Assembly (NCBI GenBank): GCA_027082825.1
Contig: JALWTO010000054.1
Span: 1 to 36,682, forward strand
Reading direction: 5' to 3'
Source of the DNA: Acidilobaceae archaeon
GTDB lineage: Archaea > Thermoproteota > Thermoprotei_A > Sulfolobales > Acidilobaceae
Length of the DNA: 36,682 nt
How positions within the stretch are numbered: position 1 is the stretch's first letter; every line of letters starts with the position of its first letter. Under the pieces are notes generated by a model that was given only the letters and a program-made list of their open reading frames with translations, had not been told where the DNA came from and did not search any database. Positions 16,415 through 19,408 of this stretch are shown piece after piece. The translations under genes and the position numbers were made by a program.

Positions 16415-16762
16415 TCACCTTAAATTTTTCAAAAGATTTAAGAGCTTAGATCTTATCTCATCTAATGATTTTATTACACAATTACCTATACAAGACTCTA
16501 GTTTCTCTTCCTCTACTCTACTACAGCTCTCGTAAAGACATTTGTTTCTAAGACCTCTTTCATTAATTCTTATTACAGTCAAGTTTCTGCTTGTATTTAT
16601 AATAAAAGTTCCCCAAAGACCCATTTCACCAAAGAACTCTTCGATACCCTTTAAATCAACAATATTTCTATCAATAACTATTCCCCAAAGGCCTGATGAA
16701 AGAGCACGGACTACTCTCTCAATGATGTCTTTATGAGTAAGCACCACCTTAGATCTACTCAA
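16415..16762 (-). CDS. hypothetical protein with Cys pairs (CLYESC, CIGNC)
   Basis: 115 aa ORF in the same direction as the ZPR1 gene, 7 nt apart. Confidence 0.6.
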   Translation of the reverse strand: MSRSKVVLTHKDIIERVVRALSSGLWGIVIDRNIVDLKGIEEFFGEMGLWGTFIINTSRNLTVIRINERGLRNKCLYESCSRVEEEKLESCIGNCVIKSLDEIRSKLLNLLKNLR

Positions 16763-16780: not shown

Positions 16781-16845
16781 TACCTCAGTAGCGGTAGGGC
16801 TTCTTCACATTAAAATATCAGCGGTAATACCACTCTTCATCGGTA
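16781..16845 (-). ncRNA. C/D-box sRNA, dual guide (predicted 16S 530-loop and tRNA D-loop)
   Basis: Minus strand: TACC-GATGA (C, 16837-16841), D' CTGA (16818-16821), C' GTGAAGA (16802-16808), D CTGA (16785-16788)-GGTA; guides complementary to CGGUAAUACCAC and UAGCGGUAGGGC. Confidence 0.75.
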
Positions 16846-16883: not shown

Positions 16884-17150
16884 TTATATTTGTTTTGTTG
16901 CCCCTTCTTGAGCTAGATCCTCTCTTACAATATCTTTATTCCACTTCTTTACATAAAGCGCTAAGACAGAGTAATTTCTTCTTACGACATTGCTTTCTAT
17001 ACATCCAGTACTTAATTTCTCATCTTCACTAGTATAGGCTACTATCTCCTTATATCCCTTGACCTTATCACAGTCCTTTATTTCAAGCCTCTTTATCTTT
17101 CCCAGCATTGCTAGACCTTCAAGTTCTATAATGTTCGTCCTTAGAATCAA
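16884..17150 (-). CDS. hypothetical protein
   Basis: 88 aa ORF, no recognised motif. Confidence 0.4.
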   Translation of the reverse strand: MILRTNIIELEGLAMLGKIKRLEIKDCDKVKGYKEIVAYTSEDEKLSTGCIESNVVRRNYSVLALYVKKWNKDIVREDLAQEGATKQI

Positions 17151-17294: not shown

Positions 17295-17642
17295 TTGTCT
17301 GAAGAAAGGAGAAAGAAGAGAATGAGAATGACATTACCTAAGAAAAAGGAGGATTTAGAAAAGGTCGTTGAAGAGGTAGAGGAAACTCATCCAGAACATC
17401 AGCATCACCATCATCATGAAGAAGAGGTAGAGGAATTCCTAGCTGCATTTGAATATCTCCTTGACTCCTTAAATGCTAATGTCAAGGTTTTGGACTCTAC
17501 TGTGAAAGAACATACTATGGAAATAGCAAGGTTATATAAAATTCTGGCTAGAATAGTTGAGGCCTGTTTTTCGAATGACGAAGAGAGAAAGAAGAAAGCA
17601 CTGCTCGATGCACTTTCGGTCTTGGAAATTAAGAATTTCTAA
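17295..17642 (+). CDS. His/Glu-rich coiled hypothetical protein
   Basis: HPEHQHHHHHEEEVEE tract followed by an amphipathic helical region. Confidence 0.65.
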   Translation: MSEERRKKRMRMTLPKKKEDLEKVVEEVEETHPEHQHHHHHEEEVEEFLAAFEYLLDSLNANVKVLDSTVKEHTMEIARLYKILARIVEACFSNDEERKKKALLDALSVLEIKNF

Positions 17643-18603
17643 GCCTGATTATTTTGCCAGGAAATTCCTTAGTGGCCAAATATACTATACTTCGATCCTT
17701 GGAACAAAGGCCTTCTATTTCAAATATCCCTCCTGTATATAACACTTTAGCAATATTATACTCAAAGGATATCACCAGAGTTCCATCTCTCGATACAGCG
17801 CAAGGAGGATAAAGAAGAGACCCTTCTTGCCCGGTATCTATAGTTACTTTAATTCGGCAACTTCTCCAAGGAGACTCCTCCTTAACAATTTTTGGACAGT
17901 GTCCCATAATTCTTCTTGGAACGCCTATCCAAGAGACGAACCTTATATTATAAAGGATGTTCCTCCTCCAGTTTGTATTTATGGCTGGTAATACATTAAG
18001 TCCCCCAAGGTTTTTCTTTAGATTCTTATGAAAGGCCTTCTTTTTTTCAAATATCTCTAACATCTTATTGGCACTCTTATGTCCATAGACTACTAAGTCT
18101 ATATCACTTACTTTAGAATTAGCAAATCCTAAAGCAACAGAACCAGTTATACCTATATCTTCTAATGGGATACCTTGTTGTCGTAACTTATAGCTTAATT
18201 GAACCAAATCGTATTCTATCTCCGATTTAGGTCTTTTTATTATATTAATTAACGCCTCTTTAGGTTTACTGAATAGCAAAATTTCTCGATGATCGATACA
18301 TGATAAGTGGCTATGAAATGTTACTGAATAGCAAAGATGGATAAGATTTCTTGTTTTCATAGTAGCCTTCAAAAGACCTTGAGGTCCATATTCAGAGATT
18401 ATTCTCCTGAAAAAACCTCCTGGTCTTCTCCAAGGGGTTTTTTCAGAAGATACAACATATTTTGGGATTATAATGAGTTTTTCCAAAGCAGGAGGGGGGA
18501 GGCCTAAAACCTGAGCCAAAAGCCCTTTCTCAGTAACGACTACTATTCCATGAATCTGTTCTTCTGATCCTACCCTGGGGATCAACAGATATGACCACCT
18601 CAT
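17629..18603 (-). CDS. nucleotidyltransferase-domain protein (COG2413-like)
   Basis: GITGSVALGFANSKVSDIDLVVYG (GS..G...SDxD) Pol-beta-superfamily motif. Confidence 0.75.
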   Translation of the reverse strand: MRWSYLLIPRVGSEEQIHGIVVVTEKGLLAQVLGLPPPALEKLIIIPKYVVSSEKTPWRRPGGFFRRIISEYGPQGLLKATMKTRNLIHLCYSVTFHSHLSCIDHREILLFSKPKEALINIIKRPKSEIEYDLVQLSYKLRQQGIPLEDIGITGSVALGFANSKVSDIDLVVYGHKSANKMLEIFEKKKAFHKNLKKNLGGLNVLPAINTNWRRNILYNIRFVSWIGVPRRIMGHCPKIVKEESPWRSCRIKVTIDTGQEGSLLYPPCAVSRDGTLVISFEYNIAKVLYTGGIFEIEGLCSKDRSIVYLATKEFPGKIIRLRNS

Positions 18604-19408
18604 CCCTAGTTAGAACTATGTCAGGAAATAGAATTTCAAAAACATTAGTTTTTAGTTCCTGATATCTAGTTCTCCAAGTCTCAAGAAAAATCTCTAATCT
18701 ACCATGAAGAAAATTAAGAAGCCAGTCAGGTCCTTTAATTATTTTTATTTTATATCTTGCTGGAACTAAATAGCTCTCATTGTTATCTATTATCCGAACT
18801 AAAAGCTTATCTATCCTACCCAGAGATACAAAGGCCTCAGAACATGGAATTTCATTCATGAATCTGAGAAACCTTATGGTATATGGGACTCCTTTATAAC
18901 ATGATTCAAGAACTCTATCATTCTTATATTCCTCTACGATCCATTGTTCCTTGACCTTGTTAAGCATGTCATAGTCTGTACGACACTGAAAGATTAATTT
19001 TTCTTTTTTCAACTTCTTTAAAATATCAAAAGATTTTCTAGAATCAGACGTGTAGATGATCAGATCAACATCACTGTTTTTGTTTTCTTCTCCAAGAGCC
19101 CAAGATCCAGTTAATCCTACAAAGTCGATCTTTAGAATATTTATTAGTTCCAGAATAGGTCTGGGTAGTTCTTTTTCCCTTAGCCTAAAGACGGAAAATG
19201 GATTTATTTCTGCGATGACATTTCTTCTTGGAACAAGAGGAACATACCTTCCTATGCATGAAAGATATGAGACCAGCCAACTGGGTATTAATGCTTCTCT
19301 TTTATAAGGTATGGCAATTATGAAGTCCTCTGGATGGACATATCCTTTAACTAACCATAGACCTACAGTACCTCCTAAACTAGCCTTCACTAGCCAACCA
19401 TCTATCAA
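18530..19408 (-). CDS. nucleotidyltransferase-domain protein (tandem paralogue)
   Basis: GLTGSWALGEENKNSDVDLIIYT motif; overlaps both neighbours. Confidence 0.75.
   Translation of the reverse strand: MIDGWLVKASLGGTVGLWLVKGYVHPEDFIIAIPYKREALIPSWLVSYLSCIGRYVPLVPRRNVIAEINPFSVFRLREKELPRPILELINILKIDFVGLTGSWALGEENKNSDVDLIIYTSDSRKSFDILKKLKKEKLIFQCRTDYDMLNKVKEQWIVEEYKNDRVLESCYKGVPYTIRFLRFMNEIPCSEAFVSLGRIDKLLVRIIDNNESYLVPARYKIKIIKGPDWLLNFLHGRLEIFLETWRTRYQELKTNVFEILFPDIVLTRDEVVISVDPQGRIRRTDSWNSSRY

Follow-up and report, generated by a model that had tools for sequence, protein, structure and literature searches.

What does the gap between two small ORFs on the minus strand of this archaeal contig encode, and which RNAs would its product act on? 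The window, meaning the whole 36,682-nt stretch of DNA analysed, is an entire contig of a Desulfurococcales (Acidilobaceae) archaeal MAG of 1.30 Mb and 84% completeness. An earlier note, made without database searches, had placed in this gap a set of C/D boxes with TACC/GGTA ends, and we found the array exactly there, at 16781-16845. It has the layout of a canonical dual-guide C/D box sRNA on the minus strand, with the C, D', C' and D boxes in order, and reads TACC-G-ATGAAGA-GTGGTATTACCG-CTGA-TATTTTAAT-GTGAAGA-AGCCCTACCGCTA-CTGA-GGTA, a 12-nt D' guide being set between C and D' and a 13-nt D guide between C' and D (Table 1). While the layout stands as first described, box C reads better as ATGAAGA (RUGANGA) than as the GATGA originally proposed. 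A strict C/guide/D'/C'/guide/D pattern matched the window once, at this array, and gave no match in 300 first-order Markov simulations of the window; no Rfam family reached its gathering score in the window, and neither flanking ORF had a Pfam or NCBIfam match. Sigma-70 promoter and terminator scans, whose models are uninformative for an archaeon, returned one terminator-like match, overlapping the sRNA itself. By its boxes and guides the element is thus a predicted archaeal C/D box guide sRNA, for which expression, RNP assembly and methylation would be expected from the behaviour of the family.

Table 1. Coordinates of the predicted sRNA, its parts and the flanking ORFs in the window
Feature	Position	Strand	Basis or remark
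C/D box sRNA, whole element (TACC...GGTA)	16781..16845	-	Pattern search; guides identical in same-genus genome
Terminal stem 5' half, TACC	16842..16845	-	Pattern search
Box C, ATGAAGA	16834..16840	-	Pattern search; kept as RTGANGA across the family
D' guide GTGGTATTACCG	16822..16833	-	11 bp to 16S CGGUAAUACCA, predicted N+5 = E. coli A532 (archaeal A509); 64/147 order genomes
Box D', CTGA	16818..16821	-	Pattern search
D'-C' spacer TATTTTAAT	16809..16817	-	3 nt in genus-mate
Box C', GTGAAGA	16802..16808	-	Pattern search
D guide AGCCCTACCGCTA	16789..16801	-	16S ~E. coli G550 as best-supported candidate target, 16S nt 37-45 as alternative; tRNA unsupported
Box D, CTGA	16785..16788	-	Pattern search
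Terminal stem 3' half, GGTA	16781..16784	-	Pattern search
88-aa ORF	16884..17150	-	Directly upstream of sRNA; kept beside sRNA in relatives (synteny marker)
115-aa ORF	16415-16762	-	Other flank of sRNA

Is this array an isolated occurrence? A pattern made of the C box and the D' guide (TGANGANTGGTATTACC) was found at 65 sites in 64 of the 147 genomes of the order, and the reversed pattern matched once; at least one of the sites (L241) resembles a chance match in coding sequence. Most of the 65 sites are followed by a recognisable C' box, a second guide and a D box. The named carriers are mostly Desulfurococcales and Acidilobaceae MAGs and include a contig of a same-genus genome, in which both guides are identical to the letter while the flanks and the D'-C' spacer diverge. 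Roughly two dozen loci, from different genera and families of the order, have the 88-aa ORF next to the sRNA and so represent one orthologous locus. This locus adds to the handful of A532 guides previously predicted an order-wide, syntenic family directed at the decoding centre. Co-transcription of the ORF and the sRNA is possible. Also on the minus strand, two nucleotidyltransferase-fold proteins are encoded in tandem (17629-18603 and 18530-19408), followed by a radical SAM protein and a 6-phospho-3-hexuloisomerase, and the synteny of the nucleotidyltransferase-fold pair with the sRNA is also kept in relatives.

The D' guide has a clear candidate target. Its complement is CGGUAAUACCA, and the 16S rRNA of relatives reads CGGUAAUACCAG, so that 11 of the 12 bases pair. 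The 530 loop had been named as the target from the start, and this identification held; the full 12-base complementarity claimed for it did not. The paired segment, CGGTAATACCA, forms 11 contiguous pairs and places N+5 on the A after CGGU, which is E. coli A532, as had been predicted; the assignment is backed by the identical copy in the same genus and by the conservation across the order. None of 400 shuffled guides reached 11 contiguous pairs through N+5. The 16S of all relatives reads GCCGCGGTAATACCAGCC, and the target is invariant among them. Both this site and the G550 site discussed below were read in relatives' 16S, the organism's own gene being assembled to about nt 411 and that of its genus-mate to about nt 113. 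Indeed, in each of the two genus assemblies the 16S gene is cut off by a contig end (G000:C3, L270, and G001:C188, L271), and an SSU family search missed these end fragments of ~411 and ~113 nt. The architecture, the conservation and the 11-bp match of the D' guide to the 530 loop are thus read directly from the sequence and its comparison with relatives.

In archaeal C/D RNPs, the proteins L7Ae, Nop5 and fibrillarin assemble on the C/D and C'/D' kink-turns, and methylation falls on the 2'-OH of whichever target nucleotide pairs with the guide five bases upstream of D' or D. By analogy, the three proteins would assemble on the kink-turns of the present sRNA, its D' arm would pair with the 16S 530 loop and give Am at E. 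coli A532 (archaeal A509), and its D arm would pair with AG(C/U)GGU-x-GGG of the same 16S and place N+5 near E. coli G550 (archaeal ~G527). The D arm may additionally contact nt 37-45, close to the 5' end of 16S. We consider it probable that the sRNA is such an acidilobacean C/D guide, its D' arm directing Am at A532 and its D arm a second 16S site on the same stretch.

Is A532 a new kind of target? Archaeal A509 corresponds to E. coli A532, as follows from the equivalence of G507 of Dennis et al. with E. coli G530 (PMC4644070), and methylation of A509 has been predicted in three archaeal species, including Thermoproteus tenax (sR15) and Pyrobaculum calidifontis (sR53) (Dennis et al. 2015, PMC4644070). 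The site is therefore of an already known kind, predicted for Thermoproteus and Pyrobaculum sRNAs. Like T. tenax sR15 and P. calidifontis sR53, the present sRNA has one guide with N+5 at A509, although it is the D' guide here and the D guide there. The second guide of those two sRNAs is predicted for 16S 530 together with 34/35, a linked plus a distant site (PMC4644070); compared by published target positions rather than by sequence alignment, the candidate sites of the second guide here would lie about 3 nt away from theirs, with N+5 at ~527 instead of 530 and at 37 instead of 34/35. A further group, T. tenax sR114, P. calidifontis sR28, Sac sR115 and Iho sR21 (16S A512 and G491; PMC4644070), likewise consists of double guides addressing both strands of helix 18, but their methylated A lies 3 nt further on and their second guide is directed at G491; among relatives of the present sRNA, those of family f3 also direct their second guide to the 5' strand of helix 18. 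On this evidence, the sRNA is a real and conserved but ordinary archaeal rRNA-methylation guide, as predicted from its sequence, and it establishes no new kind of target.

What, then, does the D guide pair with? The two targets of double guides usually lie within 100 nt of each other (Dennis et al., PMC4644070). At a site 18 nt downstream of the D' target (AGUGGUCGGG) the D guide scores 10.3 (P 0.026), or 11.5 (P 0.0045) if the fourth base of the site is C, as in some relatives; that base, unread in this organism, decides between the two values. Counted from A532, N+5 falls on E. coli G550; in archaeal numbering this is ~527, a distance of 3 nt from the position 530 given for the published A509 sRNAs. 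One mismatch interrupts the match and one of its pairs may be G-U, nor is it, over the whole 16S, the single best site of the D guide. Still, the best reading of the D guide's target is this linked 16S site around G550 (archaeal ~G527), the guide then probably serving as the second arm of a double guide on one stretch of 16S. Three other leads were discarded: on 23S the longest match was of 7 contiguous pairs, the chance level; a site toward the 3' end of 16S (UAGCCGUAGGG) had the top simple score, but its mismatch falls on N+5; and a search of rRNA for exact 8-mer matches to D guides yielded noise.

The second guides of the wider family bear on this question. From the family we took 58 distinct second guides by hand, and a family 16S served as the reference for scoring each of them. 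In 21, the top-scoring 16S site was no more than 50 nt away from the D' target, against a mean of 4.9 and a maximum of 11 after shuffling. The guides were chosen by eye and the relatives are not independent, so that the P values of this scoring, those given above for the site around G550 included, are rough. Second guides of family f3 favour the 5' strand of helix 18, 19 nt upstream of the D' target; a downstream site is preferred in families f7 and f4 (at 18-20 nt) and by several members of family f1 (at 32-34 nt). In the present sRNA's own family, the best site lay near the D' target for only 5 of 19, which suggests that the second guide drifts. A steady first guide, combined with a second one shifting from family to family among nearby 16S sites, is useful for understanding how guide RNAs evolve. 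In family f7 (loci L045, L200, L256-L260 and L262-L265) the second guides follow a common pattern, GCCC-NN-CCGCT(A/G), with minor deviations; it is mainly NN that varies, and NN is never fully complementary to the 16S site that is otherwise fitted.

Could the D guide simply have no target among stable RNAs and be kept as the partner of a functional D' arm? D guides change fast between families, and about a third of archaeal sRNAs in one survey were without rRNA targets (PMC4644070), which gives this explanation some weight. Against it, two species with widely different flanks agree in all 13 nucleotides of the D guide, and we regard an orphan guide as unlikely, if the most serious of the alternatives.

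Somewhat less likely still is a D guide whose sole target is 16S nt 33-45, with N+5 at G37; serving either to guide methylation or as a folding chaperone, it would link helix 18 with the 16S 5' end. Here the D guide forms 9 contiguous Watson-Crick pairs with nt 37-45, read in the organism's own and its genus-mate's 16S fragments, and the site resembles the published distant one at 34/35, which the A509 sRNAs also address (PMC4644070). The D guide of one relative (G006) has its best 16S site at C34. However, guide positions 2 and 4 are mismatched, N+5 comes to lie at the edge of the helix, and shuffling gives P of about 0.04 when 16S alone is considered and 0.125 over all targets. As an addition to the linked site around G550, pairing of the D guide with nt 37-45 is possible.

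The earlier note had proposed something more striking, namely that the D guide directs methylation to the D-loop of at least one tRNA, at G18, so that one sRNA would serve both 16S and tRNA. The D guide is complementary to UAGCGGUAGGGC, and this sequence occurs once in the genome and once in the genus-mate, in each case opposite the sRNA. It is present in none of the 33 tRNA genes over the cut-off here nor of the 31 in the genus-mate (Rfam RF00005 inventory), tRNA genes missing from the two incomplete assemblies being a small loophole. Searching both genomes for the D-arm, exactly and with 2 mismatches, gave no tRNA; across the 147 genomes of the order, a 15-nt D-arm (GCCUAGCGGUAGGGC) with at most one mismatch had 22 sites, none of them in an ARAGORN-detected tRNA. 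The nearest tRNA match, CAGCGGUAGAGC, belongs to tRNA-Tyr and, in the genus-mate, also to tRNA-Asn and tRNA-Thr. It pairs with guide positions 2-9 and 11-12 and is mismatched at 1 and 10. Seen from the tRNA side, this means that AGCGGUAG offers 8 contiguous pairs and 2 past a mismatch, with N+5 at G18 and an energy of -17.5 kcal/mol, compared with -17.9 for the 16S 5' site. Nevertheless, 8 contiguous pairs to a tRNA are reached by ~11% of shuffled guides (P about 0.11), that is, at chance level; both mismatches, though removable by simple base changes, are kept in the two species; and several 16S sites match the D guide equally well or better.

Precedent exists for such a target. PMC7668247, citing Ziesche et al. 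2004, reports that an sRNA guides methylation of tRNA-Gln at G18 in Sulfolobus acidocaldarius; that organism thus has a C/D sRNA acting on G18 of a D-loop, whereas no tRNA here adequately matches the D guide. Going by that report, a positive tRNA result would not be the first of its kind, and the novelty attached to the proposal was overstated. The second guide of tRNA-targeting sRNAs usually has no target (PMC7994747), which also speaks against a tRNA role. The suggested check for a trmH-like gene came out in favour of the tRNA reading: the genus-mate's single SpoU gene is TrmJ-like rather than TrmH, though below the cut-off of the TrmJ model, and no SpoU-type gene was found in this genome. 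Taken together, we hold methylation of tRNA G18 by the D guide to be improbable. Even less credit is due to a combined scheme, with methylation of the 16S decoding region through the D' arm and, through the D arm, methylation of 16S as well as of G18 in tRNA-Tyr, -Asn and -Thr. If true, this would link the modification of the ribosome to that of tRNA in an archaeon that lacks TrmH. In passing, a tRNA-Thr-like gene in both genus genomes (L021 763-850 and L136 1501-1588) has a D-arm that is apparently interrupted by an intron (CAGCGGTAGA / CCTGCGCGGGCCGACA / GCGCC).
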